Made by a program: the position numbers and the translations under genes. This document shows, one piece after another, positions 5,073-45,700 of a DNA stretch of 64,000 bases; position 1 is the stretch's first letter, and each line of letters begins with the position of its first letter. The stretch spans positions 62,001 through 126,000 of the forward strand of contig NZ_JACJJK010000005.1 of assembly GCF_016899935.1 (NCBI RefSeq), given 5' to 3'. The stretch is from Olsenella uli (GTDB taxonomy: Bacteria; Actinomycetota; Coriobacteriia; Coriobacteriales; Atopobiaceae). The notes under the pieces were generated by a model, which did no database searches, was not told where the DNA came from, and saw only the letters and a program-made list of their open reading frames with translations.

Positions 5073-6842
5073 ATGCATCTCGAGCACATCGGCTCGCCCG
5101 AGGACGTGCGCGCCCTCCCCGCCTCCGAGCTCCCGGCCCTCGCCGACGAGATTCGCGCCGCGATCATCGAGAGCACCTCGGTGACCGGCGGCCACACCGG
5201 CTCCAACCTGGCCACCGTCGAGCTCACGATCGCCCTGCACCGCGTCTTCGAGACCCCACGCGACAAGATCGTCTTTGACGTCTCGCACCAGTCCTACGCG
5301 CACAAGATGCTCACCGGCCGCGCAGGCGCCTACCTCGACCCGGCGCGCTACGGCGAGGTCTCCGGCTTCTCCAACCCCTCCGAGTCCGAGCACGACCTCT
5401 TCTCGATGGGCCACACCTCCACCTCGGTGAGCCTCGCCTGCGGCCTGGCCGCCGCGCGCGACCTCGCGGGGGAGACGTACGACGTGGTGGCCGTCATCGG
5501 CGACGGGTCGCTCTCCGGCGGGCTCGCCTTCGAGGGCCTGGACAACGCCGCCGAGCTGGGCAGCGGCCTCATCGTCGTGGTCAACGACAACGAGTGGTCC
5601 ATCGCGCCCAACCACGGCGGGATCTATCGCAACCTCGCCGAGCTGCGGCGCACGCACGGCACGAGCCCGGACAACGTGTTCCGCTCCCTCGGGCTCGACT
5701 ACCGCTACCTCGAGGACGGCCACGACGTCGCCGCGCTTGAGGCCGCCCTCTCCGAGCTGCGCGGAACGGACCACCCGGTGGTTCTCCACGTTCACACCCA
5801 GAAGGGCCACGGCTATGCGCCGGCCGTCGCGAACCCGGAGGGCTGGCACCACGCCGTGCCGTTCGAGGTCGCCACGGGCACCGTCCTTCCCGGCGCGAAG
5901 GCCCACCCCGCAGACGAGAACTACGCCAACGTCACCGGCGCGCTCCTGCTCGACTGGATGCGCACCGACCCGCGCGTCGTCGCGGTGAACGCCGCCACGC
6001 CCTACATCATGGGCTTCACGCCAGAGCTGCGCGAGCGCGCGGGCAGGCGCTTCATTGACGTGGGCATCGCCGAGGAGCACGCCGTGAGCTTCGTGACGGG
6101 TCTCGCCCGCAGCGGCGCCCGCCCGGTGCTCGGCATCTACGCCACCTTCCTGCAGCGCGCCTACGACCAGCTCTGGCACGACCTCTGCCTGAACGACGTC
6201 CCCGTGACGATCCTGGTCTTCGGCGCCTCGGCCTTTGGCACCACCGACGTCACCCACCTGGGCTTCTTCGACATCCCCATGCTGGGGACCATGCCGCGCC
6301 TCACCTATCTCGCGCCCACCTGCATCGAGGAGTACCTCGACATGCTCTCCTGGTCGATCGAGCACGAGGGCGGCCCCGTGGCCATCCGCGTGCCGGTGGC
6401 GGGCGGCGTAACCTCCCGGCCGGACTTCGCGCAGGCAGAGGACTACGCGCACGGCTTCGAGGTCCTGCGCGAGGGCTCCGAGGTGGCGCTTCTCGCCCTC
6501 GGCGACTTCCTCCCGCTGGGCGAGAAGATCGCGGACGCCCTGGCCGCGTCCGGCGTGCGCGCGACCCTGGTGAACCCGCGCCTGGCCACTGCGCCGGACG
6601 AGGACCTGCTCGACCGCCTTGCGGCCGGCCACCGCGTGATCGTCACGCTCGAGGACGGCGTCCTGGACGGCGGCTTCGGCGAGCGCTGCGCCCGCGAGCT
6701 GGCCGCCGACGACGTGCGCGTCCTCTGCTACGGCCTGCCGCGCGCCTTCGTCGACCGCTACGACCCCGCCGATCTTCTCGCCCGCTGCGGCATCACGGTC
6801 GAGGGCGTCACGGCGGACGCCCTGGCTGCCCTGCGCGCGTAG
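5073..6842 (+). CDS. DXS-like thiamine-diphosphate synthase (short form)
   Basis: This 589-residue transketolase-superfamily enzyme is most similar in pattern to 1-deoxy-D-xylulose-5-phosphate synthase, the first step of the MEP isoprenoid pathway. Visible features are GGHTGSNLATVELTIALH, DVSHQSYAHKMLTGR, the SESEHDLFSMGHTSTS segment, the ThDP-binding GDGSLSGG...ND motif, and DVGIAEEHAVSF for the catalytic Glu region. It is shorter than the usual 620-640 residues, and several canonical DXS positions differ (NDNEWSIAPNHGG where classical enzymes have NDMSIS). It may be a second, divergent DXS or a related ketol transferase. GGGAGGAGGG precedes the ATG, and a terminator follows the stop. It is transcribed alone, divergently from feoB. 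Confidence 0.75.
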   Translation: MHLEHIGSPEDVRALPASELPALADEIRAAIIESTSVTGGHTGSNLATVELTIALHRVFETPRDKIVFDVSHQSYAHKMLTGRAGAYLDPARYGEVSGFSNPSESEHDLFSMGHTSTSVSLACGLAAARDLAGETYDVVAVIGDGSLSGGLAFEGLDNAAELGSGLIVVVNDNEWSIAPNHGGIYRNLAELRRTHGTSPDNVFRSLGLDYRYLEDGHDVAALEAALSELRGTDHPVVLHVHTQKGHGYAPAVANPEGWHHAVPFEVATGTVLPGAKAHPADENYANVTGALLLDWMRTDPRVVAVNAATPYIMGFTPELRERAGRRFIDVGIAEEHAVSFVTGLARSGARPVLGIYATFLQRAYDQLWHDLCLNDVPVTILVFGASAFGTTDVTHLGFFDIPMLGTMPRLTYLAPTCIEEYLDMLSWSIEHEGGPVAIRVPVAGGVTSRPDFAQAEDYAHGFEVLREGSEVALLALGDFLPLGEKIADALAASGVRATLVNPRLATAPDEDLLDRLAAGHRVIVTLEDGVLDGGFGERCARELAADDVRVLCYGLPRAFVDRYDPADLLARCGITVEGVTADALAALRA

Positions 6843-6866
6843 CGCGGTCAAGGCCTTATCTCTGTT

Positions 6867-6887
6867 CCCGCCCCGTCGGGCGGGTTT
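6867..6887 (+). terminator. Intrinsic terminator after the DXS-like gene
   Basis: CCCGCC (6867-6872) pairs with GGCGGG (6879-6884) over a 6-base loop and is followed by TTT. It begins 24 bases after the stop codon and overlaps the end of the convergent zinc-ribbon gene by two bases. Confidence 0.6.
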
Positions 6888-8097
6888 ACTCGGTTATGAC
6901 GGGATCGTAGGAGCCAGCCGGAGCGCTATAGCTAAAGAGCACGTCGCCCCTGTTGTTGACGATGGTGTACTCGACGGAGCGGTCCGTGCAGGCGGTGAGG
7001 AAGTCGGCCGTCTGCTCGTATACCCCCTCCGTTCCGTTCGTGCTGAGCTTGGTGGGCCAGGCCGATCCATCAAAGTCGCCACGCTCGGTGATGCGCACGC
7101 TCGTGTCGTCCAGCTCGTAGCTGACCGTCACCTCGCCGGAACCGGAGGCGCCAAGACTCGAGAGCGATCCCTGAAGCAAATCCGTATCCGTCTGCGCTAT
7201 GTAGGGACAGAGCTGCGAGAGCAGGTCATCGGCGGAGTCATGGGCACTCTGCTTGGCGTCGTCCAGAATCTGCTGGGCGCGATTGCGTGTGCGGTTGGCC
7301 TCCTCCTCATCCGCCTCGTCGCGAACGCTCGTGTAGAGGGCGACGAGCGTGCCGTCCGTCGAGTAGACGGAGCTTACCACCGACGTGCCGAGCTGATTGG
7401 CCAGGTCCTGGTAGTAAGCAACACTCGGGTCCTCCGTGCCATCGTCATAGCACCACTCCCATTGGCGCGCGTCCACCCCCATGGTGGACGTGAACTCCAC
7501 GTAGCATCCCTGGTCGGAGCAGGTCTCGTTCGTCACGTTGTTGAGAGGCCCTCGGTCAATCTCCCCTTGGATCAGATGCTCGCGCTCGAGCTGGCGCTGC
7601 GTCTTGTCAAGCGTCACGACAACGCCCTGGCTTTCGTCGGCGGCGTTCAGGACCGACCCGGGTTCGGGGCTCACGGAGCCCACCTCGTAGAACTGGTACG
7701 AGAACTCGTCCGTCACCTCGACGGCCTGCCCACCCTCGTCCAGGAGCGTGACCTGCCAGGCGTCCGACGCGGACCTGAGGTCCTGCAGCGCATCATAGGG
7801 CTTCTCGCCCACGACGTCTGGCACGCTCACGCGCCCGAGCATCCCGTTGAGGGCCCCGCTGAAGTAGAGCCCCGCGCCTGCTGCGGCAACAATCGCCACC
7901 ACGGCAACAATCACAACGGCGACGACGGCACCCCGTCGACCCTTGCGCCGGGCGGGCGCCGACGGCGACTGGGCGGCGGACTGCGAAGCCGGCGGCACGG
8001 ACGCCGGTCCCGAGCTCCCGTCAGCGACTCTCTGTCCGCAGTTCCGGCAGAACGCGCTCCCGTCGGGAATCTGAGCGCCGCAGTTTCGACAAAACAT
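6886..8097 (-). CDS. Zinc-ribbon membrane protein with PASTA-like extracellular domain
   Basis: This protein has 403 residues. A cytoplasmic zinc ribbon opens it (Cys3, Cys6, Cys17, Cys20; FCRNCGAQIPDG...). A Ser/Pro/Ala-rich linker and one transmembrane helix follow at about residues 50-72. The rest is probably extracellular. Its first part (VSVPDVVGEKPYDALQDL) resembles a PASTA domain, the module that senses cell-wall fragments in Ser/Thr kinases. The remaining 250 residues match no family I recognise. The start at 8097 has GAGAGGGGG upstream; a longer frame to 8124 is less likely. It is the last of three leftward zinc-ribbon membrane genes and probably shares their transcript. Function is unknown; a role at the cell surface is inferred from layout. 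Confidence 0.75.
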   Translation of the reverse strand: MFCRNCGAQIPDGSAFCRNCGQRVADGSSGPASVPPASQSAAQSPSAPARRKGRRGAVVAVVIVAVVAIVAAAGAGLYFSGALNGMLGRVSVPDVVGEKPYDALQDLRSASDAWQVTLLDEGGQAVEVTDEFSYQFYEVGSVSPEPGSVLNAADESQGVVVTLDKTQRQLEREHLIQGEIDRGPLNNVTNETCSDQGCYVEFTSTMGVDARQWEWCYDDGTEDPSVAYYQDLANQLGTSVVSSVYSTDGTLVALYTSVRDEADEEEANRTRNRAQQILDDAKQSAHDSADDLLSQLCPYIAQTDTDLLQGSLSSLGASGSGEVTVSYELDDTSVRITERGDFDGSAWPTKLSTNGTEGVYEQTADFLTACTDRSVEYTIVNNRGDVLFSYSAPAGSYDPVITE

Positions 8098-21014: not shown

Positions 21015-21824
21015 CTAGCCCATCCAGGTGGTGGTGAGCTCGTCGATCGTGCCGTTCTCGTCGAGCGCGGCGAGCGCGTCGTTGACGGCGGAGAGCAGCG
21101 CGGGGTTGTCCTTGGAGACGGCGACGCCGTACTCCTCGCCCGTGGCGCTCTTGCCCACGATCTGGGCGTCAGTGTAGGCCTCGGCAATCATCTTCTCGCC
21201 GACGGCGAGGTTGGTGACCACGGCGACGGTGCCGTCGGTGCCGGCCTGCATGGCCGCGAAGCAGTCGGTGGCGTTGCCGTAGCCCACGACCTTGGCGTTG
21301 GGGAAGTTCTCCTGCGCGAAGGTCTCGCCGGTGGTGCCGGACTGGACGGCGATGACGACGCCCTCCTGGTTGAGCGCGTCGGCGTAGGTGTCAGCGGTAA
21401 CGTCGGCGTTGTCGGTCATCGCGACGACGCACTGGTCGTCGATGTAGTAGGACGTGGAGAAGTCGACCTGCTCCTCGCGCTCGGGGTCGATCGTGATGCC
21501 GGAGCAGCCCACGTCGGCCTGGCCGCCGGCCTGGATGGCCGGGACGATGGCGTCGAACTGCAGGTTCTTGAACTCGACCTCGAGGCCCATCTGCTCGGCG
21601 ACGGCCTTCATGAGGTCGACGTCAAAGCCCACGTACTCGTCTCCGTCGAGGTTCTCGAAGGGGGGGAAGTCCGGGGAGACGGCCACGGTCAGCGTGCCGT
21701 CCTTGATGAGACCGAGGTCGTCCGTGGCGTCCTGCTCGCCACCGGCGTTGCAGCCGGCAAGCGCGACGGTAGACGCGAGCGCACCCGCGACGGTCAGGAA
21801 GTTCCTTCTGGTCATGCTCTTCAT
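21015..21824 (-). CDS. Amino-acid ABC transporter substrate-binding lipoprotein
   Basis: This 269-residue periplasmic-binding-protein family 3 lipoprotein begins MKSMTRRNFLTVAG and has the lipobox LAGC, so it is a lipid-anchored extracellular protein; the twin Arg suggests possible Tat export. The mature domain shows the SBP3 pattern: GTLTVAVSPDFPPFE, YVGFDVDLMKAVAEQMG, FDAIVPAIQAGQAD-type and QSGTTGE. GGAGGAG precedes the ATG at 21824. It is the first gene of the operon with the permease and ATPase. A C7 run inside FPPF is in frame and intact. Confidence 0.94.
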   Translation of the reverse strand: MKSMTRRNFLTVAGALASTVALAGCNAGGEQDATDDLGLIKDGTLTVAVSPDFPPFENLDGDEYVGFDVDLMKAVAEQMGLEVEFKNLQFDAIVPAIQAGGQADVGCSGITIDPEREEQVDFSTSYYIDDQCVVAMTDNADVTADTYADALNQEGVVIAVQSGTTGETFAQENFPNAKVVGYGNATDCFAAMQAGTDGTVAVVTNLAVGEKMIAEAYTDAQIVGKSATGEEYGVAVSKDNPALLSAVNDALAALDENGTIDELTTTWMG

Positions 21825-24874: not shown

Positions 24875-24896
24875 CTTGCCGACGGGAAATGTTGTA

Positions 24897-24927
24897 TCAA
24901 CGTTATCTGAAAACGTGCGCTCACAAT
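24897..24927 (+). promoter_or_regulatory. Promoter with shared 16-base spacer word (lipoprotein gene)
   Basis: The word TTATCTGAAAACGTGC (24903-24918) is followed after three bases by CACAAT (24922-24927), a possible -10 box. The identical 16-mer, with a -10 at the same distance, occurs in the promoter of the pilin at 51.2 kb. This points to a common regulator for the two genes. Confidence 0.55.
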
Positions 24928-24964
24928 GGGTCGCAGCAGCATCGCCCATCGAGAGGAGCACGAA

Positions 24965-25651
24965 ATGGCCCGTCGGCTGACGCGAAGGAACTTCCTGTTC
25001 GCAGGGTCTCTCGGTCTGATTGGAACTCTTAGCTCAGTTGGTTGCGGAGGCGCCCCCACCACCGAGCAGGAGGAGCCCGAGAAGGCCGAGCAGCCGGAAG
25101 AAATCGAGAAGCACGCAGTTGGAGAGACCGTCGAGACAGACCTCGTGAAGCTCACGCTCAACGATGCTGCATTCACAATCGCCCTCAACAACTCGCTTCC
25201 GATTGGAGCGGATTTCAACATCGACAACGATTACTTCTGCCCAAAGGAATACGTGGCAGAGGAGGACGCGAACAACGCCTTTGTGGCTCCAAAGGGGAGC
25301 ACACTCGTGTTCTATGAGCTCGTGATCGAGAATCTGGACAGGGACTATCTTGACCTTGACGGTTTTGGAACGAAGAGCGAGTTCGTTGCCGTTGCCTACG
25401 AAGGAGAGACGTACACGGAGTTCGAGGAGCGGGAGTACGGCTGGGCGATCAGAGATCTCGATGGAGAGCAGGATTGGGACAGCACCCCAGTAACTAACAT
25501 ACTCGCGAGCGTCGGAGTAAGGGACCTGTATCGCGCATACGCAACAGTTCCCTTCGAGCCAGCATCGCTCAGCGACCCCTTCGATATATCCTTTACGCTC
25601 CCATGCTCAGACGACACCACCCAGACCTTCACTTTTGCCATCAACCAGTGA
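24965..25651 (+). CDS. Putative lipoprotein (Tat-type signal), DUF4352-like fold possible
   Basis: This 228-residue exported protein begins MARRLTRRNFLFAGSLG and has a lipobox ending VGCGG, so it should be a lipid-anchored surface protein; the twin-Arg start suggests Tat export. A Glu/Pro-rich linker follows (about residues 30-50). The mature domain looks beta-rich (VKLTLNDAAFTIALN, LVFYELVIENLDRDYLDLDGF) and resembles the DUF4352-type immunoglobulin-like fold, though this is tentative. GAGAGGAG precedes the ATG at 24965. Base composition is lower in GC than the neighbours. Its promoter shares a 16-base word with a pilin promoter. No enzyme motif is seen. Confidence 0.75.
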   Translation: MARRLTRRNFLFAGSLGLIGTLSSVGCGGAPTTEQEEPEKAEQPEEIEKHAVGETVETDLVKLTLNDAAFTIALNNSLPIGADFNIDNDYFCPKEYVAEEDANNAFVAPKGSTLVFYELVIENLDRDYLDLDGFGTKSEFVAVAYEGETYTEFEEREYGWAIRDLDGEQDWDSTPVTNILASVGVRDLYRAYATVPFEPASLSDPFDISFTLPCSDDTTQTFTFAINQ

Positions 25652-25850
25652 CAAACCTCAATTCGCGCACAACACGATCGCTTGGGTTGCAACTTATCAC
25701 GACCTTTGCAGACGCCTCACCTGAACAACATCTCGTCGCGTCATGCGCAACCCCCGGATGTCTAAGCACACAAATCCCGTTGTGCTCAACGGCACTTTCT
25801 ATCAGACGGTTTTACCCGACGATTCAACGTCAAAGCGAAAGGACCCCGCC

Positions 25851-26069
25851 ATGAAGGAACGAGCCCCCATCAAGTGCCCGTCGTGTGGGGATATGTTTGG
25901 ATGGAAGTATATCGGGACTGACCAGGGTGGATTCAGCGCCGGTAAGGCGGCCGCCGGCGCCGTCCTCGTCGGCCCAATCGGACTTGCTGCTGGAGCACTT
26001 GGACGAAAGAAGTACACCTACCGCTGCAGCAAGTGCGGTTTCATGCGGTCGTACGATTTAGGCCAGTAA
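25851..26069 (+). CDS. Small zinc-ribbon protein
   Basis: This 72-residue protein has two zinc-binding knuckles, CPSCG near residue 9 and CSKCG near residue 60. They flank a Gly/Ala-rich hydrophobic stretch (AGKAAAGAVLVGPIGLAAGALG) that may dip into a membrane. The ATG at 25851 has AAAGGA upstream; the open frame extends back to 25743 without a ribosome site. It lies nine bases upstream of the 678-residue zinc-ribbon protein and is probably cotranscribed with it. Function unknown. Confidence 0.65.
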   Translation: MKERAPIKCPSCGDMFGWKYIGTDQGGFSAGKAAAGAVLVGPIGLAAGALGRKKYTYRCSKCGFMRSYDLGQ

Positions 26070-26078
26070 AGAGGAAGC

Positions 26079-28115
26079 ATGCTGGATAATCCCCGCGGTT
26101 TTTTTGACCCCATGCCGGTCTTGCTGCTCTCCTCGACCCCAGAGGAAGTCGTCTCCACTCTGGAGGGGGCGTGCTCGTCCAGCATGTTAATCAGCTACGA
26201 ATGCAAGGACGAGTCAAGTCCGTTCCGCTATCCCTCGGACCCTGAAACCGAGAATCATAACTGGGTCTATGAAATAACGATTGGAGCATACGCCTGCAAG
26301 CCGAGTGACCTGCCAAAAGAGCCCAACGAGCTTGAATATGAGCAGCTTTACCGTCAAGTAGGCTTACATCCCTCAACGGCACGAGAACTCTGGCTGTTCA
26401 ACGTCAGGCAGTTTCTCCGCAAGCATCAGCCAAAGGGACATCTCGTTCTCAATCTCGCGCGCCATTCTACGGGAGCGTGCATCGTCTGCATGAGAAGACG
26501 AGGCCGCTCCTACGACATGACTCCCATCACGCCTCAAGACCTCGATGCCATGCCTTACACGGATCCGCTGTTCGAGCCGATGAAACTCGTTCGAAAGCAT
26601 CTGTTTATGTGCTCGCCCTCCATCTCATGCTTTAGATGCGACTCCCCCGTTCGATACTCGCTTTGCTGCCCCACGTGCCAAGCGGCGCACGAGGAGATAG
26701 AGCGCGAGCACAGACTCGAGCTCGCTCGAAAAAAGGCTGAGATCGTCCATTCCGTGAGGGAGTACCTGTCATCGTCACCGTACGCGGAGCCGCTCATCGC
26801 TGTTGTAGCAGCTCTCAAGCTCCCAAGCAGAAAGTATGAGCTTGGGAGAAACGTTGCCCTCAGGTCCGAGCTAAACAGACCGCTCACGAACATGACAGCG
26901 TGCCACGCCCCCGATCAGGAGATCTCCCTTGAGGATGTGCTCGAATCGGCACCAGCATTTAGCTTGATAACACCGGATGACGCGGTCGGAACGTGGGTCG
27001 GTCTTTCTGGTGAGGAGAAGCCCCTCGGAACGGTCGCCCCTCAATTTGACGCCAGGCCATTCGAATCGTTTGACATTACGCCTGGGACGCCGCTTATCCC
27101 GAACGGACTTACAGCAGCGTCGCAGGATAAACAAACGGGCTATCACTTTGAGCTCGCAACATGCAGCTTGTGTGGCAGGACCTACTGCGCGCTGACCTCG
27201 AACGAGGCTGACTGTGTCTGCGACGAGTGCAAGGTTCCTCAGCTGGAAAGGTACTATCTGCCACAAGTGTGGGATGCAATCGTCGAGGACGCGGAGAGCT
27301 CCAACGGAGACGGGAGAATAATCTTTGATATTCCCTTTGGAGGGACTTCGTGGCAGCTTGAATTCTATGCCACAAAGCTATCAAACGCCTATCTCGACTA
27401 TCAAACAAAAAGTCCTATCGTATGCGACGCAACCAAAGAGTACCCGTTCAAGGAGTCGTCTCTCACACTCCCGTTCTACACGCTCTCGTCCATCATCGAC
27501 AAAACCGTCTCGTCCTTCGTTGCAGCAGGCTATCTCAAAAGACAATCCAACAATCGGATGGTCAGAAAGTACCTCACCCTCGCCAAGGACGGGGGCAACC
27601 AATTGAAACTCGATATGACAAAGCGCGATATCTTGTCCCTCCTCGACTCGGGCGAGCAGAGCTTTCTCGACATAAGACGGTCCCTAAGCAAGATTCCCGA
27701 GCAGACCGTTAAGGATGCGGTCATCGGCCTCTTGATTGAAGGGAGAATCTATTACGCAAGGGGCTCAGAGACATATGTGACCGACAATGCCTTGTTCTCC
27801 CTCACCAACTGGGTGCAAGATTTTTGGAACTCCCACGAACATCTCAAGGCTCCCTATGAGAGTGCCAAGAGGATCCTGAGCTCCAAGAAAGCCTATATCA
27901 ACGCACAAATCGACGGGGTGACCAAGATGAAGCTTCCGCTGCTCGGTCGCGGTAAAGCAGAAGCGGAGCGACAAAAGAGGCTTTCGGACCTAGAGGAGCA
28001 ATATAACGCGCTCATCGGTTATGAAAAGAGACTTTCGACACTTTCGCAGAACCCGACGCAAGAGGAAGTCGTCAGATTCATTGAGGAGATGGACTATCTC
28101 GAGAAACAGCTCTAG
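26079..28115 (+). CDS. Large unknown zinc-ribbon protein in a low-GC segment
   Basis: I do not recognise this 678-residue protein. It has two Cys clusters: CFRCDSPVRYSLCCPTC near residue 187 and CSLCGRTYC...CVCDEC near residue 365. A charged helical stretch follows the first. The region at about residues 465-580 (KYLTLAKDGGNQLKLDMTKRD..., two repeats of a winged-helix-like pattern with IEGRIYYARG) may bind nucleic acid. The C-terminus is a Lys/Glu-rich helix. GAGGAAGC precedes the ATG. Codon use is less GC-biased than in the flanking genes, which suggests transfer. It ends four bases from the convergent FHA gene. No signal peptide or membrane segment is evident. Confidence 0.6.
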   Translation: MLDNPRGFFDPMPVLLLSSTPEEVVSTLEGACSSSMLISYECKDESSPFRYPSDPETENHNWVYEITIGAYACKPSDLPKEPNELEYEQLYRQVGLHPSTARELWLFNVRQFLRKHQPKGHLVLNLARHSTGACIVCMRRRGRSYDMTPITPQDLDAMPYTDPLFEPMKLVRKHLFMCSPSISCFRCDSPVRYSLCCPTCQAAHEEIEREHRLELARKKAEIVHSVREYLSSSPYAEPLIAVVAALKLPSRKYELGRNVALRSELNRPLTNMTACHAPDQEISLEDVLESAPAFSLITPDDAVGTWVGLSGEEKPLGTVAPQFDARPFESFDITPGTPLIPNGLTAASQDKQTGYHFELATCSLCGRTYCALTSNEADCVCDECKVPQLERYYLPQVWDAIVEDAESSNGDGRIIFDIPFGGTSWQLEFYATKLSNAYLDYQTKSPIVCDATKEYPFKESSLTLPFYTLSSIIDKTVSSFVAAGYLKRQSNNRMVRKYLTLAKDGGNQLKLDMTKRDILSLLDSGEQSFLDIRRSLSKIPEQTVKDAVIGLLIEGRIYYARGSETYVTDNALFSLTNWVQDFWNSHEHLKAPYESAKRILSSKKAYINAQIDGVTKMKLPLLGRGKAEAERQKRLSDLEEQYNALIGYEKRLSTLSQNPTQEEVVRFIEEMDYLEKQL

Positions 28116-28119
28116 ACCC

Positions 28120-29058
28120 CTACCCCACCACGCCCTCGATTGCGACGAGCGTGGTTTCGCCGGCGAGCACGAGCTCGTCGGCGGGGCGCAGCGGAACCGG
28201 CACGCCGGACTCCAGCCACACGCGCTCGTGGCTCGCGCCGTCGATGCGCTCCGTCCCGTTCTTGGAGCCCAAATCCTCGACGAGCCAGCCGTCCCTCTCG
28301 TCATGCCAGACGCGAAGATGCCTTCCGGAGACACCGGGGCCCACGTCGGTGATGTCACCGTCACCCATCGCGAGCGCCCCTATCTCGACGCCACCATCGG
28401 AGCTGGAGAGCCAATGAGGACCGCCCGCGACATAACCGTCTTGGATGCGGATGAGGCCGAGCCTGGTCCTCACCTCGGTGCACTCCCCCTCTACCGCCCG
28501 CACGGGACTCGCCGTCGGCGTGGAGGCACGACGCCTCAGGGTGTCGTTCACGTAGCCCATGGCGTAGGACACGGCCTCGCACGCGTCCGAGGAGCAGCCC
28601 GCCGCCACGAAGAGCACGAGCAACGCCTCGGCGCGCTCACCTGGGGCGAGCCCCTCTCCCTGAGCCAGCCGATCGACGGCGTTGCGGTAGAGCGTAGCAT
28701 CCTGTCGGCACAGCTCGAGCGCGCGGTCCATGGCACGCCCCCGCTCGCCGACAAGCAGGGAGACCACCTCCTCGGCGGTCATGGCCTTGCCCCTCCGAGA
28801 CTTCAGGCGACCCAGGACGCACGTCGCCGCACTCCCCCAGTCCCGGAAATAACGTGGCGAGAGCGTACCCGCCGGCGCGTGGACCACAGAGTGGGAGAGC
28901 CAGGAGCGGTCGCGGGCGAGGTCGCGCGGACTTTTGCCGCTCGGCAGGGGGCGCCTGGAGAGGACGATGTCCGCAAGCTCTCGATGCGTGATGCCGCCGG
29001 CCCGCTTGAGCAGGTCAAACATCACCCCGCAGGGAGTGGGCTCGTCGACGATCAGCAA
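28120..29058 (-). CDS. FHA-domain protein
   Basis: The protein has about 312 residues. The C-terminal 90 residues form a forkhead-associated domain, which binds phosphothreonine: GPGVSGRHLRVWHDERDGWLVEDLGSKNGT shows the conserved Ser-x-x-His and Ser-Lys-Asn-Gly positions. The N-terminal 200 residues are mostly helical and unknown. The start is uncertain: I prefer the TTG at 29058, which has GGGAGG nine bases upstream and lies downstream of a possible -10 box; an ATG at 29106 is the alternative. It is divergent from an acidic membrane protein and a Ser/Thr kinase, its likely partner. Confidence 0.8.
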   Translation of the reverse strand: MLIVDEPTPCGVMFDLLKRAGGITHRELADIVLSRRPLPSGKSPRDLARDRSWLSHSVVHAPAGTLSPRYFRDWGSAATCVLGRLKSRRGKAMTAEEVVSLLVGERGRAMDRALELCRQDATLYRNAVDRLAQGEGLAPGERAEALLVLFVAAGCSSDACEAVSYAMGYVNDTLRRRASTPTASPVRAVEGECTEVRTRLGLIRIQDGYVAGGPHWLSSSDGGVEIGALAMGDGDITDVGPGVSGRHLRVWHDERDGWLVEDLGSKNGTERIDGASHERVWLESGVPVPLRPADELVLAGETTLVAIEGVVG

Positions 29059-29182
29059 CTCCGGACACCTCCCAGTCCGTCGGCACCAGCGTTCGTGCCG
29101 TATCATTTTACACGACGGGAAAGGGCGCGCCCCACGCATGGCACCCTGACCGGCCGACACGCGATGAAGGTAGGAAACGACG

Positions 29183-30070
29183 ATGCCGCGCACGCACCAT
29201 AGAGGACCCAGGACCGGTTGGTCAGCCAGCCTCCCGCCGCGAGCGGTCGCCCTGGTCGCCACCTCGATCGTGCTTCTCGTCGGAAGCGCGGCCGTCTATC
29301 TGACGGAGCTTCCGAACCTCATGGCTCCGCTTGCCCCCGCAGAGCAGAGGGCCACCGGGTCGGCGTCGGAGCCAAACGGAAGCGGGAACGAGAGCGGGAC
29401 CCCTGCGAATCAGGGGGACACCGCCGAGGGCGAGACGGACGAGAGCGCTGCGTCCGTGGACAATGGCGAGAAGGACGGCTCGGCGCCACCGAAGGCCTCT
29501 TCCGAAGAGGAGGCCTCGTCTCCCGAGGAAGGCGACGAAGCCAGCACGGGCAGCCCCGACGAGGAGGCTCCCGCCCCCTCCACGCCCGAAGACCCCAGCG
29601 CCACGGAACCCGATGGGGCCGACAGCATCTTCTCCTCCACCCCGAGCGCCGCCGAGGAGGAGGCCTTCAGGTCGTTCCTCTCGGGCAAGGCGTCTTCGAT
29701 TCCGGGATACGTAAGCCAGGCAAGCGCCTGCGCGAGCTCCTTCGAAGCGGACAGCGTGGGCGCAAGCCTTTCCGTCCGCCGTTCTCATCGGGGCACCTGC
29801 GCGGCCCTTGCCCAGCAGCTCTTCTCCGAGTACGTGGCCGTTCGCGACTACGTTCGATCCAACAACTCCCAGTACTGTGACGAACAGGAGCGGCTAATCG
29901 GCTCGTATCGCTGCCTCATGAGCTACGTCGGCTGCTATGCCGACGCCTGGGACATCAACGTGAGCTACGACGATCCAGGCAGCCACGTCGGCGAGTTTTC
30001 GGGCCCGCTCTCCTCGAGCGGGGGCTACCTGTCTGAGTTCCACTCCTACTACGACGGGCTGGCGATATGA
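29183..30070 (+). CDS. Single-pass membrane protein with acidic Ser/Glu/Pro-rich stalk
   Basis: The protein has 295 residues. A basic N-terminus leads into one transmembrane helix (about 19-42). A low-complexity Glu/Ser/Ala/Pro-rich stalk follows to about residue 155, then a 140-residue globular C-terminus with five Cys, probably outside the cell. No family is recognised. AGGTAGGAA precedes the ATG. Its stop codon overlaps the kinase start (ATGA), so the two are translationally coupled. It may be a sensor or substrate for the kinase. Confidence 0.7.
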   Translation: MPRTHHRGPRTGWSASLPPRAVALVATSIVLLVGSAAVYLTELPNLMAPLAPAEQRATGSASEPNGSGNESGTPANQGDTAEGETDESAASVDNGEKDGSAPPKASSEEEASSPEEGDEASTGSPDEEAPAPSTPEDPSATEPDGADSIFSSTPSAAEEEAFRSFLSGKASSIPGYVSQASACASSFEADSVGASLSVRRSHRGTCAALAQQLFSEYVAVRDYVRSNNSQYCDEQERLIGSYRCLMSYVGCYADAWDINVSYDDPGSHVGEFSGPLSSSGGYLSEFHSYYDGLAI

Positions 30071-31761
30071 GCACGCCAGGCGATTGCAGGCTTGCGGCTT
30101 CGGGCGCAGGTCCCTCTCGAATCATGAGAATCGAGAAGTTCGAGGCGCCGTTCACCCTCGCGGAGTCCGAGCGCGACGCCTATCTCAGGCGCCTCTCGAC
30201 GCTTTTCGTTGACGAGCGTCGGAGCCGGCGCGGGGGCCTTGGCAGAGTGTATCACGCGACGAACGCGCTCGACGAGCAGCTTGCCGTCAAGAAGCTGATA
30301 CTGCCAGAAGACAACCGGAACGGCTTGGACGAGGAGTCGCTGCGCGCTGCCTTCAGGCGTGAGTACGAGAGCCACCGCGAGCTCGGTGCCCTCCGCGGGT
30401 TTCCGCGGCTCTTTGGGTTTGGTTCGAGCGAGGGCGTCCCCGTCATAGTCATGGAGTGGGTCGAGGGAGTGACACTCGCGGAGGCGCGTCACGAGCTCGC
30501 GGTCGACGACGAGGGACGCATCTCGCCCCTCACCGTCGCGCGACTGGGCCGAGACCTCCTCGAGCTCGTCTCGAGGCTCTCGCTCGTGGGCACGGGCATC
30601 GTGCATCGCGACATCTCGCCGGCAAACGTCATCGTCAGGACAACCCATCGCTCGCTTGAGGCTCAGCGGGGAGAGGGGGCGTTCGACCTCTGTCTCGTCG
30701 ACTTTGGATCGGCGGAGCCCGTCTCTGCAGCAGGCGGCTCGTTCACCGCAACAAACGGCGCGCTGCGACATGCGACGGTGGACTATGCGCCACCGGAGAT
30801 GCTGAGCGATGACATTCCGTCCGTCGAGCGGCGGCGGCACTCCCCTGCGGTGGACGTCTATGCCGTGGGAAGCGTGCTGTGCCAACTCATTGGCGGCCGC
30901 CCGCCGTTTCCCGGCGCGACTCGGACGGCCTCTCCCTACCGGCTCAAGACCGAACGAGAGCCCGAAAGGCCCGTTCCGGCGCACGTCGCGACGGATGACC
31001 TCGCGGCGGTCCTCTCGCGCGAAGGCGAGGTGTCCGTCATCGTTGCCCCGATCGCGCTCGAGCGGGACCTTTCCCCTCGTAACAGCGAGCTCAAGCGGGC
31101 ACTCGCGCTCGCGGACGAGCAGATAGTGGACGCCATCATGGCATGTCTCGCCTCGGACCAGGGCCGTCGCCCCGCACCGAGCGTCATGCGCGATGAACTC
31201 GACGGGTTCGCGTCTCGCTACGGCGAGAACGTGCGCCGGGCCCTGAGCGGCGACCCCCTCACCCCCTGCATGACGGGGGCTCCCTGGCTGGTCGTGGAAT
31301 CGCCGCTCTCTGTGCGGCGCCTGCTGCGCGGCGGGGGACGGCTCGTTGGCCTGCTCGTGTGGGCGGCAACCTCTCTCACGACGGCCTGGCTAGTCGGAAG
31401 GGGCAACCCGGCTCAGGCCGTACTCGTGGGGTCCGCGCTCATGGCACCTGCGTTCACCGCCCTTCTCGCACGATGGCGCGACACCTCGAGCGCGTCTGGG
31501 CTCATCCGGGGAAGCGCGGCGCTTCTCTTCTCGTCTGTCGCGAGCGGTCTGCTGCTCTGGCGTGTGCTCGAGCCTGGCGGTAGGCTGACCGGCTTGCTCG
31601 CAGCCGAGCTTCTCTGTGCAAGCGCCGCGTGGCTGCCGCTGGTGACGGACTACGCGTGCGCCTGCGTTCCCGGCATCATCCGCGAGAGGCGACGTCGGCT
31701 CCCGGAAGAGGCGGACACGTCCCACGGAAGAGTGTCGACAAGAGCGCGCCGCCTGCCCTGA
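30067..31761 (+). CDS. Ser/Thr protein kinase with C-terminal membrane domain
   Basis: This 564-residue protein has a eukaryotic-like kinase domain at about residues 35-355. The ATP-anchoring Lys lies in EQLAVKKLIL, the catalytic loop is HRDISPANVIV, the metal-binding motif is VDFGSAE, and APPEM follows the activation loop. The Gly-rich loop (RRGGLGRVY) is present. Four hydrophobic segments follow from about residue 420 (LLVWAATSLTTAWLVG onward), ending with a basic tail. There is no PASTA domain. It overlaps the preceding gene by four bases and is divergent from the FHA gene. The set looks like a phospho-signalling module; substrates are unknown. A terminator follows and overlaps the last codons. 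Confidence 0.88.
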   Translation: MSTPGDCRLAASGAGPSRIMRIEKFEAPFTLAESERDAYLRRLSTLFVDERRSRRGGLGRVYHATNALDEQLAVKKLILPEDNRNGLDEESLRAAFRREYESHRELGALRGFPRLFGFGSSEGVPVIVMEWVEGVTLAEARHELAVDDEGRISPLTVARLGRDLLELVSRLSLVGTGIVHRDISPANVIVRTTHRSLEAQRGEGAFDLCLVDFGSAEPVSAAGGSFTATNGALRHATVDYAPPEMLSDDIPSVERRRHSPAVDVYAVGSVLCQLIGGRPPFPGATRTASPYRLKTEREPERPVPAHVATDDLAAVLSREGEVSVIVAPIALERDLSPRNSELKRALALADEQIVDAIMACLASDQGRRPAPSVMRDELDGFASRYGENVRRALSGDPLTPCMTGAPWLVVESPLSVRRLLRGGGRLVGLLVWAATSLTTAWLVGRGNPAQAVLVGSALMAPAFTALLARWRDTSSASGLIRGSAALLFSSVASGLLLWRVLEPGGRLTGLLAAELLCASAAWLPLVTDYACACVPGIIRERRRRLPEEADTSHGRVSTRARRLP

Positions 31762-41163: not shown

Positions 41164-42588
41164 TTACGCGTTGTCGTTGTTCTTGCGGGAGCGGACGATG
41201 AACGCCGCAGCACCAGCGATGATCACGACGCCCGCGGCGGTGAAGGCGACGGTGCCCGCGCCACCGGTGGTCGGGAGGTTCACGCCATCACTAGTAGTGG
41301 AAGGAGTGTTCTTAAGGGCAAACGTCTTGTCGAGCTGCTGGGTCTCGTTGTTCCAAGTCACCGTAATCTCAAACGGGTCCTTAGGGAGCGTGTAGCCCGC
41401 CGGGGCCTTCGTCTCTTTCAGATAGTAGGTCGTGCCGGCCTCAAGGAGCGTATCGGCGTCAGTCGAAGCCTTGCCATCAACAGTGGTCAAGGTAACAGGA
41501 GTCGTCCCGTCCTTCTTATACACAGGCTTCGTGCAATCCTCGTCGTAATAAAGCGCAAACTCGGCGCCGTCGAGGAGCTGATCGCCAGCGTTATAGGAGC
41601 CGCTGTTGTTCGAATCGGCATACTTGACAATGTCGAAACCCGTGAACTTGACGGTAACGTCGCTCTTTCTATCGGTCACGTTCGAGGAGGTAACCTCGTT
41701 GCTCACGCCGTCGAGAGTTGCGTCCTTGGTGATGGTGCCCTTGTACTCGAGAGTGTAAGCACCAGCATGAGCGGAAGTACCGTTCTCATTCTTCTCGGCG
41801 AGCCAATCCTCATCAAAGGTGACCACAAGCTGTGGATCACCATTGTTGGCGCTAACAGAATACGCGGTTTTAGGAACAACGGTGCCACCAGCATCCTTAA
41901 TCACCAGCTGGTCGATGCTGCTCAGCACAAGACCCGTGCTCATCGTATCGGTAAGGGTAAGCTCGGTGTCGGTCGCGTTGATCGCAAACTTGACCGTAAA
42001 GGTGAGCTCGTCGCCAACCTCAGCGTAATCCTGGCCGTTGACCTTGATGGAACCGCCCGTAACGGTCTTGTCGAGGATATCGGACTCCTTCTTCAGGTCA
42101 ACTGCGACGTTGTCGATCGTCCAGCCCGAACCGTCCGTGTCCGGTACGGCGTTCAGCGCGACGACAGTCTGCTGATAGGTGTAGCCCTCCACACCATCAA
42201 CGTCAACGTAATACAGACCAGCCTGAAGATCGTTGAACGTCAGCGAGGAACCGGTCGCCTCGATAGGGCCACCAACGGGCACGCCCTCGCCATCGAAAGC
42301 AGCTGCAGTGGTTTCACTCTGATCTGCGAGATACGCGGTAATCTCAGCCTGGTCAACTCCAGTCTCGGGGACAAGCGTCGTCGTGTTGTCATCATTGAGC
42401 TGAACATGAGCCACACGATACAGAGAGACCGTATCGCCCTCACTAAGGTTATTAATGGTGATCGACGCAGTCTGGCTTCCTGTCCATTCCACGGCGAACG
42501 CCATCGTCGGGACAAGCGCAAGGGTGGCAACGAGCGCGACGAGCGCGGTCATCATCCCCTTGAGCTTGCTTCTAATACTGTGAGCCAT
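41164..42588 (-). CDS. LPxTG backbone pilin
   Basis: This 474-residue fimbrial subunit has a signal peptide (about 1-30, ending MAFAVEW), an N-terminal domain with the pilin-type Lys region (VAVDLKKESDILDKTV), central isopeptide-forming domains and a SpaA/CnaB-like last domain with the E-box YYLKETKAPAGYTL. The sorting signal NLPTTGGAGT is followed by a hydrophobic helix and RSRKNNDNA. GGAGGAAAAC precedes the ATG. It lies between the tip adhesin upstream and two sortases downstream, as in the FCT/spa pilus operons. Codon use is a little less GC-rich than in the neighbours. Confidence 0.93.
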   Translation of the reverse strand: MAHSIRSKLKGMMTALVALVATLALVPTMAFAVEWTGSQTASITINNLSEGDTVSLYRVAHVQLNDDNTTTLVPETGVDQAEITAYLADQSETTAAAFDGEGVPVGGPIEATGSSLTFNDLQAGLYYVDVDGVEGYTYQQTVVALNAVPDTDGSGWTIDNVAVDLKKESDILDKTVTGGSIKVNGQDYAEVGDELTFTVKFAINATDTELTLTDTMSTGLVLSSIDQLVIKDAGGTVVPKTAYSVSANNGDPQLVVTFDEDWLAEKNENGTSAHAGAYTLEYKGTITKDATLDGVSNEVTSSNVTDRKSDVTVKFTGFDIVKYADSNNSGSYNAGDQLLDGAEFALYYDEDCTKPVYKKDGTTPVTLTTVDGKASTDADTLLEAGTTYYLKETKAPAGYTLPKDPFEITVTWNNETQQLDKTFALKNTPSTTSDGVNLPTTGGAGTVAFTAAGVVIIAGAAAFIVRSRKNNDNA

Positions 42589-42724
42589 GTTTTCCTCCTT
42601 CTCGCCGATCTGGTTCGGCATCGCCCACATACCTACTTGCCTGCTATAACCTCCGGGCGGTCGCCCGGCTGTTACCGTGATGGGGCTACCGCCCGCCCTC
42701 TGCGGGCGGCAGCCAATCGATTAG

Positions 42725-45700
42725 TTAGTGCTGAAAACCCTTGCGCTTCTGGAAGAGGTAGACACCTGCAAGCGCAGCGGTGGCGACGCCAGCCGCGGAC
42801 ATCGCGATGGTTCCCGACGAGCCCGTGCTCGGAAGCGTGTCTATGCCGGTGTTCTCAACGGTCACGCGGAAGGTGGCCTCCGCCCCCTCAACGGCGGTCG
42901 CGTTCTCAAGATTCGGGTAGGTAACGCTATCGTCCTCGTCAACGCTCGGAAGCGCCGCTTGGATGGTGCCATCGTCGGTCACGACGATCTTGAGCGGGTT
43001 CTCGAGCTTGGTGTAGCCAGCGGGGACGCTCGTCTCTACGAGCCAGTAGGTGCCGGGCTCGAGGTCGGAGAAGGTCGCGAGACCATCTTCACTCGTAGTC
43101 TGGGCTGTGCCAAACATGGCAGTATCGGTATCAGGGTTGTACGTCGGGTTCTGCTCGGTAGAGGTCTCCTCGTACAGCTGGAACGTAGCGCCCTGCAGGG
43201 TCTTGTCGCCGCTGTCCGGGTCACCCTCGGTCGGCTCGGTGTAGCAATCGTCATTTACCGTGTCCTCGTACTTCAGGACCTGGAGATTGGCGGTGTTCTT
43301 TCCATATGTGTTGGTCAGAGTGATTGTCTCGATACCGTCGCCACTTGTGGCGCTACCGTTAACTAGTTGGACAACACCTGCGGGAGTTTCCTCATCGGTG
43401 TCAGCCGCCGTCACACCACGCCACGGCAGCGCGTCGGTCCCGCCATCGTCGTCTCCCTCGCCGAAAGACTCGGCGATGTAGTAGTTCTTGTTCGGTTCCA
43501 GCCAGAAGGTGTAGGAGTGGTCATCGTCCATCTGGCTGTACTTGATGGAGCCGTTGTTGCCAACCTGGGTAAGCTCGCCGTCGTCTACGACGTTGTCATA
43601 ATCAGAGTCAGTCCACTCGTAAAGCGTGTAGGTAGCCTGGAAGTCTGCCGGAGCCGTGTTGCCCTCGGTGCCGGAGAACTGCTTCACGAGCTTGAGCGGG
43701 CGGGTGAAGGTAGCCTTGTTCGTGACGTTGACCACGATGCTACCGTAGCCGGGCATCGTCGCAGAAGCGACGCCGTTCTCAACACTGCTCCCCGGTATGT
43801 CCTCCCCCGCGCCGTCCGTCACGGTGCAACTCATGTCGTACTTATCGCTGATATGAGCTCCCGGCTCTGTTATGTCCGAGGTGCCGACCTCCTGTACCGT
43901 GACCTTGTCGTCCACCTGGAGATCGGGGAAGACCGCGGTCTGGTCGTTTTTCAGCGTGAGGTAGCCGTTCTCGTCTGTGGTGCCCGTGATGCTCGTGCCC
44001 TGGATGGTGTACTGCTGGTTCGCATAAGGCTGACCGCCAACCTTCACCTGCATGGTGTAGGTGACGTCCGCGAGCTGCGGGGCGTAGTAGTTCTCGACCT
44101 CCTTGTGGACGGCGAGCTGGCCGTCGGGGATGGTCTTGAGGTTGAAGCTGATCTTGAGGTTCGAGGCACCCTCGCCGCGCTCCATGTAGAAGATCTGGAT
44201 GCGGTGGTTGGAGCCGTCGGCGAAGGTGTCGCCGTTCCAGTCGACCGAGCCCTCCTGGCGCGCGGCCTCGTACTGGGCCTTGATCGTGGTCGAGTGCCAC
44301 TCGGGCGTGTTCGGCCGATCGGTGTGGTCCTGGTCGATCGTCGTGTCGGTGTAGCGCACCTCGCCGGTGGCGAAGTTGATCGTGCCGCTCTGCGCGTCGT
44401 GGATGCCGCCGAGGTCGAGCACGAGGACGCCGTCGATGTAGACCCACATGTCGTCGTCGCCCGTGAACTCGAAGACCATGTCCTTCGGATCACCGTCCGG
44501 CTGGCCGTCCCCGTTTTGGTCGTTGGCCTCGACTTGACCGCCCTGCGGCTGGTAGAAGTCGGCCCACACGTACATGCCGAAGTGGAAGTCGTTGCTGCCC
44601 TGGAGCCCGTAGATGGGGTCGTTGTAGCCCGGGTCGCCCTCATGCAGCTCCTCGCCCTCCGCAGTGTAGTGGTTGCGGCTGATCACGTTGCTCGTGTCGA
44701 GGTCGTTGTACGGCATGAAGTTGCCGCGCTGGAAGTAGTACGGGGTGCCGCCGGCGGGGGATCCGAGCGCGTTGTAGAGGGTGAAGTTGTCATCGTCGTC
44801 GTTGGCGAGCGTCGCGAAGTTCTCGAAGGAGCTGTAGTAGAAGGTGCCGTCCTCGTTGTACTTGTCCAAGCGGAAGAGGTGGTTCACGGCATGGGAGTTG
44901 TCGACGCTGAAGGCGTTTTGGGAGCTGCCGAAGAGCCAACTGAGTGATCGATTTGGGGTCTCATACTGCCCGGTCAGGCTCGGCCAACCGTTCGTAGTGG
45001 TGGGGGTGGTCATGCCCTCCTTGACGTCGCCCGTGCGGCCGTTCTCGGTGTACTCGCCGCCGTTGAACTGGCGCACGTTGTCGGCGTAGTCGAACATGTA
45101 CATATGGACGCCCTTGTCAGCGCTGTCCACAGTGTCGACGGTCTCCAGTTCGGCGTTCGGCGTATACACCAAGTAAACGGTGTTGTTGCCAACGTTTGTC
45201 CATTTGCCACTGATTTGATTCCTGTACTGCCACCTATTGCTGCTATTTTGCAGCTGCACTAGGTCAGCTTTTCCATCCAACGAATTGGCATTTCGAGCAA
45301 GCTCAGCATGCTGATACGTATAGCCAGGAATTTGAGGGGCAATTTCGGACAGCGTAATCCAGTTGTTGCGCACGATGTCACTTAGACTTGAACCTATTTC
45401 GGCCCCGGATTCGTCAACACAGTGAATCTGAATTTCTGGCCTGTATCCAGAATAATAGCCCCACGTAATCGTGAAGGTGGAGAAGCTATCCACGGAAAAG
45501 TCGGCCGTCACGTTGTCGGCCTTGGCCTCGACGGTTCCCGCGCCCTTCTCGGCATCGGCCGCCTTAGCCTTGCCGGCATCGGCGGTCTGGGCCACGGTCT
45601 CGACCTTCTCGACCCCCCCCCTTGTCGTTCTCCGCCAGGTGCTGCACGGCGAGGGTGGAGGCGTCCACGTCGTCGCCCAGCGCGCCCTGGGGGAGCTCGA

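Follow-up and report, generated by a model that had tools for sequence, protein, structure and literature searches.

A 678-residue protein encoded in a low-GC segment of Olsenella uli is probably the second product of a horizontally moving two-gene cassette

What kind of gene encodes the isolated 678-residue protein found in a low-GC segment of the O. uli genome, and does it travel alone or together with its neighbours? The window, i.e. the whole 64 000-nucleotide stretch of DNA that was analysed, comes from an assembly of 2.1 Mb in 131 contigs. The initial annotation had reported low GC at 24.9–28.1 kb, an ORF of 678 codons at the end of that segment and a small zinc-ribbon gene closely ahead of it, and these points were borne out. 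The GC content of 24901–28115 is 54.5% versus 66.9% for the whole window; when 3.2-kb windows were moved along the DNA by 50-base steps, the lowest value was obtained for the one starting at 24901, and no other start was as low. The ORF has exactly the coordinates and length that had been given (Table 1), and the small gene ends 9 nt before it, a ribosome-binding-like AGAGGAAG preceding the larger gene. Three genes make up the segment, for a lipoprotein, the 72-aa zinc-ribbon protein and the 678-aa protein, and all are co-directional. The largest has 53.7% GC and a GC3 of 0.65, which is even along its length (0.64–0.68); GC3 elsewhere is 0.92–0.97 (gpmA, FeoB and the gene at 21015, three nearby genes) or 0.79–0.82 (the adjacent FHA/kinase block). 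The longest stop-free run in 24901–28120 is 681 codons; when this stretch was resampled 1000 times with a first-order Markov model, the longest run averaged 169 codons and was 494 at most.

Table 1. Coordinates, strand and supporting basis of the features discussed (positions in the window)
Feature	Coordinates	Strand	Basis
GTTGTATCAAC, left boundary of the conserved flank that follows gpmA; candidate promoter or other element	24891..24901	+	variable among relatives to its right
228-aa protein with twin-arginine-like signal and lipobox	24965..25651	+	sequence; no Pfam family
72-aa zinc-ribbon protein, first gene of the pair	25851..26069	+	PHROG matches, aligned relatives, hydropathy
678-aa protein, second gene of the pair	26079..28115	+	ORF, codon composition
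First four-Cys cluster, residues 184–200 (CFRC...CPTC)	26628..26678	+	sequence; sub-threshold Pfam TRASH-type zinc finger, E 0.0095
Second Cys cluster, residues 362–384 (CSLC...C...C.CDEC)	27162..27230	+	sequence; sub-threshold adenylate-kinase-lid-type match, E 0.068
Possible winged helix-turn-helix, residues 508–571	27600..27791	+	weak matches; low-confidence model with helices followed by three strands
FWNSH, start of a C-terminal helical module possibly common to the G443 (YWEAN) and G754 (YWSAH) partners	27822..27836	+	chosen post hoc
Right junction, where common sequence resumes at about the stop codon of the FHA gene	28116..28122	.	alignment of five genomes

Both Cys clusters claimed for the protein are present. 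Of its 19 cysteines, those of the first cluster form CxxC motifs at residues 184 and 197, and those of the second form CxxC motifs at 362 and 381 with extra Cys at 370 and 379; an additional CxxC is located at residue 134. The statement that there is no recognised domain also holds, since no Pfam, NCBIfam, PHROGs or PADLOC family was matched at a meaningful score. Homologues belonging to a known housekeeping family had been named as the finding that would speak against the initial view, and the profile searches yielded no known family. The 'winged-helix-like parts' of the initial annotation survive in part: several weak matches (a PADLOC CARF model, a GntR-type regulator, Pfam RPA_C and PDB regulators) converge on residues ~508–571, none being significant in either profile or fold comparison, and together with the low-confidence model they suggest that a winged helix may lie in this region. 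Single-sequence structure models were made, as had been proposed, and none was usable (pLDDT 36.4 for the whole protein and 42.0 for residues 466–612). A PDB fold search with the 466–612 model (pLDDT 42) returned nothing at E 0.001; the best rows, prolyl-tRNA synthetases (E ~0.06, TM ~0.3), were not taken as evidence.

Direct relatives of the 678-aa protein were sought at several taxonomic depths. It has no relative besides itself in its own genome and none in the 139 other genomes of the family sample (140 with its own), and the 396 phylum, 396 class and 395 order genomes, which are overlapping samples, gave solely matches at the level of chance or of helix-turn-helix similarity. One phylum match (G368) is, by eye, a GntR-type regulator and hence was not taken as a relative. 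The order search at E 2 gave weak matches in 37 further genomes; the frames of 8 of these loci were inspected and none had the look of a relative. Scans of genome contigs, and of viral contigs with the whole protein and with four pieces of it, found no relative, nor did tblastn of plasmids and phages; the contig scans depend on short identical peptides and overlook remote homologues.

The segment lies between a gene which we take to be gpmA and, on the other strand, an FHA-domain gene (PF00498), followed by an uncharacterised protein and a protein kinase (PF00069). gpmA was found in 19/19 genomes searched (its own and 18 of its genus), and the regions to its right were examined for 17 of the 18 other genus genomes. 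The FHA/kinase block occurs there in four (G094, G096, G106 and G110). In 12 of the other 13 regions the gene next to gpmA is presumably ZIP-type, with an intervening space of 0.35–1.9 kb in the 11 measured, and G084 has neither the FHA/kinase block nor the ZIP-type gene in the stretch examined. The slot between gpmA and the FHA gene is empty in G106 (a space of ~0.2 kb), contains a DUF2752 ORF in G096 and a lipoprotein ORF in G094, and holds a lipoprotein ORF, an AAA_14/DUF4143 ORF and a SHOCT protein in G110. Because its contents differ among five genomes with common junctions, the segment in the window is replaceable cargo of a slot whose contents turn over between species. At the left edge, GTTGTATCAAC is found at the same place in the window, G094, G096 and G106; G110 and the 13 other regions lack it. 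That it could be a dispersed site was ruled out by its single copy in the whole own genome, and a promoter scan gave no more than expected by chance. Signs of a mobile element were looked for at the segment, where there is no tRNA, no Rfam match and no long flanking direct repeat.

Several further observations were made at this slot and in the window. In the G110 slot (L038) the same peptide start occurs at 180 and 2357, flanking the AAA_14/DUF4143 ORF, possibly as a trace of duplication or insertion. The block at 28120–31761 of the window comprises the FHA gene, a membrane-type protein and a Ser/Thr kinase, and the kinase scores well against the PD-T4-6 and mad6 models; such good scores may be general among protein kinases. 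A second low-GC stretch (41164–45595, minus strand) contains two genes for LPXTG-anchored pilins or adhesins of SpaA type, and its low GC probably has an ordinary explanation.

The first gene of the segment encodes a 228-aa protein, presumably a lipoprotein, as named from its signal. A relative with 56% identity occurs in a different context in another genus (G008), without the pair beside it, and because it is found elsewhere without the pair we regard the lipoprotein as slot cargo outside the recurrent pair. The G008 gene (L087, reverse complement 5984–7255) lies in a low-GC patch, near another lipoprotein and beside an endonuclease ORF which we assume to be Vsr-like.

The small gene most likely starts at the ATG at 25851 (72 aa) and not at 25743, because its relatives begin there. 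Its product consists of a CPxCG motif, a glycine-rich hydrophobic stretch and a CxxCGF motif; the four cysteines are predicted to bind zinc, and the hydropathy of residues 33–51 is borderline hydrophobic (1.75). It matches PHROG 2546 and six further PHROGs (E 8.4e-6 or better) and has the feature typical of PHROG 2546, i.e. two CxxC pairs around a glycine-rich hydrophobic stretch. PHROG 2546, 6837 and 24502 are phage-protein families whose C-terminal region the small protein matches (E 2e-13 to 2e-11), the alignment spanning the glycine-rich stretch together with the two CxxC pairs. In these families, however, the match is at the end of a longer protein (109–175 of 180, 58–130 of 134 and 103–171 of 177, respectively), whereas in the window the small protein is stand-alone and coupled to a large partner. 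PHROG 2546, mostly through its N-terminal zinc ribbon, has 30 matches in the own genome, and each of the other 30 genus genomes has between 2 and 28; the repertoire of zinc-ribbon proteins in the genus is large and uneven between genomes.

The 72-aa protein was matched in 19 of 392 order genomes, its own included. From 17 of the other 18 (all but G063), 18 stretches were examined, and gene order was tabulated for 14 of them, leaving out G640 (no tblastn match), G071 (a 3-kb contig), and G761 and a second G072 stretch (partial matches). A co-directional gene of at least 150 aa lies within 10 nt of the small gene, or overlaps it, in 3/14. In G443 (L152) the small protein is 71.8% identical to that of the window and its partner of 375 aa follows after 4 nt; in G754 (L153) the identity is 62.0% and the partner, at 7 nt, has 344 aa (350 aa, overlapping the small gene, if an earlier ATG is used); in G080 the small protein is more distant (39% identical) and a 422-aa partner is located 9 nt downstream. 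The remaining 11 have no partner closer than 60 nt, the next ORF being 62–63 nt after the small gene in G021 and G709, and a stand-alone relative was also found in a Myxococcota record (L086).

G443 and G754 carry the closest small-gene relatives of the window among the 392 order genomes, and both have the downstream partner. The two partners are homologous (BLAST E ~2.5e-18) with 24.5% identity, and the two small proteins are 71.8% identical. The G443 partner has a GC3 of 0.62 and the pair stands alone between genes of GC3 0.85–0.90, namely a UvrD-type helicase gene (PADLOC helicase models), presumably AddA, and a second high-GC3 gene, which we take to be dnaE. The G754 pair is preceded by a gene for a 328-aa membrane-type protein. 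A comparison of the DNA around the pairs in the window, G443 and G754 found nothing in common upstream or downstream. The G443 and G754 partners have no relative in plasmids or phages and, searched as a profile, none in viral contigs; the G080 partner has none in plasmids. A related small gene followed by a larger co-directional gene at 9, 4 and 7 nt recurs at three unrelated sites. We consider it a recurrent two-gene cassette because the closest small-gene relatives both carry coupled and mutually homologous partners, and because one of these pairs stands alone between high-GC genes. It is read as a transferred unit for three reasons: its foreign composition, a slot that relatives leave empty or fill differently, and the recurrence of the pair at unrelated sites. 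The initial annotation had suggested both that a transferred unit is present and that the pair should be sought in other genomes; the search found the small gene with a coupled larger gene in G443 and G754, and the unit is now narrowed to the pair, excluding the lipoprotein. A literature search among open-licence papers did not find the pair described.

By position, the 678-aa protein is the longest known partner in such a cassette. The evidence for its homology to the G443 and G754 partners is suggestive, not proven. A profile of these two partners gave an E-value of 240 with the 678-aa protein, no better than shuffles, and the C-terminal profiles were not above shuffles either (the score was reached by 593 and 336 of 5000). 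hhalign gave one weak alignment (E 0.24), which pairs residues 65–106 with profile positions 70–106, i.e. at the same N-terminal place. Two out of seven local comparisons fell below 3% of shuffles: the first 200 residues against the G754 partner (score reached by 61/3000) and the C-terminus against the G443 partner (31/3000); the other five were unremarkable. A pattern picked after looking, [FY]Wx[AS][NH], occurs once each in the window, G443 and G754 proteins, 97, 89 and 82 residues from the end, respectively. It is apparently absent from the rest of 301 background ORFs, a set which includes the three partner proteins; the rest is read as zero because the first two pattern counts (2 and 3) equal the partners' own matches. 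The 422-aa G080 partner does not contain it. A hydrophobic break was seen by eye in the C-terminal coil (GFFKGRK, GFKLFGNG and GFFKFSRK; LPLLGRGK in the window). At 375 and ~344 aa, the partners in G443 and G754 lack the length to accommodate all of the middle part of the 678-aa protein.

We favour the reading that the 678-aa gene probably occupies the second position in a two-gene cassette that moves horizontally, its first gene being conserved and its second diverging rapidly. The first would supply a conserved 71–72-aa zinc-ribbon protein with a glycine-rich hydrophobic stretch, and the second, 4–9 nt behind, a larger and rapidly diverging protein with a helical C-terminal module. The two proteins may act together: the Cys clusters of the larger one would bind zinc, and it would recognise a ligand (either a nucleic acid or a protein), perhaps by means of the winged helix, with the small protein as a membrane- or partner-docking module.

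Other origins of the locus have to be weighed against this. Unrelated accessory genes may have arrived singly in a hotspot of gene content, the 678-aa ORF being a lineage-specific ORFan, perhaps derived from a phage or plasmid, that sits behind a common stand-alone zinc-ribbon gene. We judge this rather unlikely, while noting that the zinc-ribbon gene is often alone (the 11/14 relatives and the Myxococcota record above), that the slot takes varied single genes and that no significant homology links the 678-aa protein to the other partners. However, both of the closest small-gene relatives carry tightly coupled, mutually homologous partners, and the 678-aa gene itself is coupled at 9 nt, with AGAGGAAG before it. 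That the ORF is spurious, or decaying within a low-GC relic, would fit with the lack of a relative in any collection searched but is most unlikely in view of the 681 open codons (none of the resamples exceeded 494), the steady GC3 and the close coupling to the small gene.

The lipoprotein, the zinc-ribbon protein and the large protein could also form an envelope or signalling unit that works with the FHA protein and the Ser/Thr kinase encoded next to it, for example as kinase substrates or regulators. All are in one slot beside the FHA gene and the kinase, and in G094 and G110 the slot likewise holds lipoproteins whose signal is of this type. Yet the FHA/kinase block exists without the window cargo in G094, G096, G106 and G110, no such block was seen around the G443 and G754 pairs (first 110 residues per ORF, by eye), and the cargo and the FHA gene are transcribed towards each other, so that the cargo lies outside the operon of the FHA gene, which makes such a unit very unlikely.

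As for the use of the cassette, an accessory function in conflicts, e.g. defence against phages or plasmids, is our best guess, if a doubtful one. The initial annotation had raised defence or nucleic-acid handling as possible roles. The winged helix is weakly indicated. PADLOC 2.0.0 found nothing meaningful in the window pair (one model at E 0.057 for the 678-aa protein, two at ~0.08 for a 108-aa form of the small protein), and neither the window pair nor that of G443 was found to have a defence gene next to it. The G443 and G080 partners match a few models weakly, in helical parts (LmuB, JetC). A type II methyltransferase and a Fic-type protein are encoded within the same 12 kb as the G754 pair, and next to the G080 pair there is an AAA_14-like ATPase (PADLOC candidate PDC-S01). 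Distant small zinc-ribbon genes lie, in G021 (L164 5438–5620), between BrxA/BrxC genes and a gene, presumably McrB-like, which PADLOC matches to restriction enzymes and, in G060, next to a type I specificity gene. The window pair resembles the CoCoNuT and TerY-P systems, which have zinc ribbons beside coiled coils and are proposed to handle nucleic acid (PMC11090510). It differs from them in that the pair and its surroundings showed no recognisable McrB GTPase, McrC, kinase-fused ribbon or nuclease; specifically, Pfam and PADLOC detected no McrB-type GTPase, as in type IV restriction or CoCoNuT, among the segment ORFs and their neighbours. A more specific version is unlikely: a new type of two-gene immune or anti-plasmid module in which the conserved zinc-ribbon protein with its glycine-zipper-like stretch would serve throughout as the effector or membrane component, and the second protein, which diversifies rapidly and ranges from 344 to 678 aa (the longest with added zinc fingers and winged helix), would be the sensor switching it on. 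The faster divergence of the second gene could reflect weak constraint and not an arms race.

The pair is a real transferred unit without a description in the family libraries searched (Pfam, NCBIfam, PHROGs and PADLOC). Through its link to the small gene the isolated 678-aa protein becomes a testable object, and the small gene is usable as bait for a fast-evolving partner that is beyond the reach of sequence search alone. If the pair is a conflict system, the gap in divergence between its halves (72% versus 24% identity between G443 and G754) would show which of them faces a changing target.
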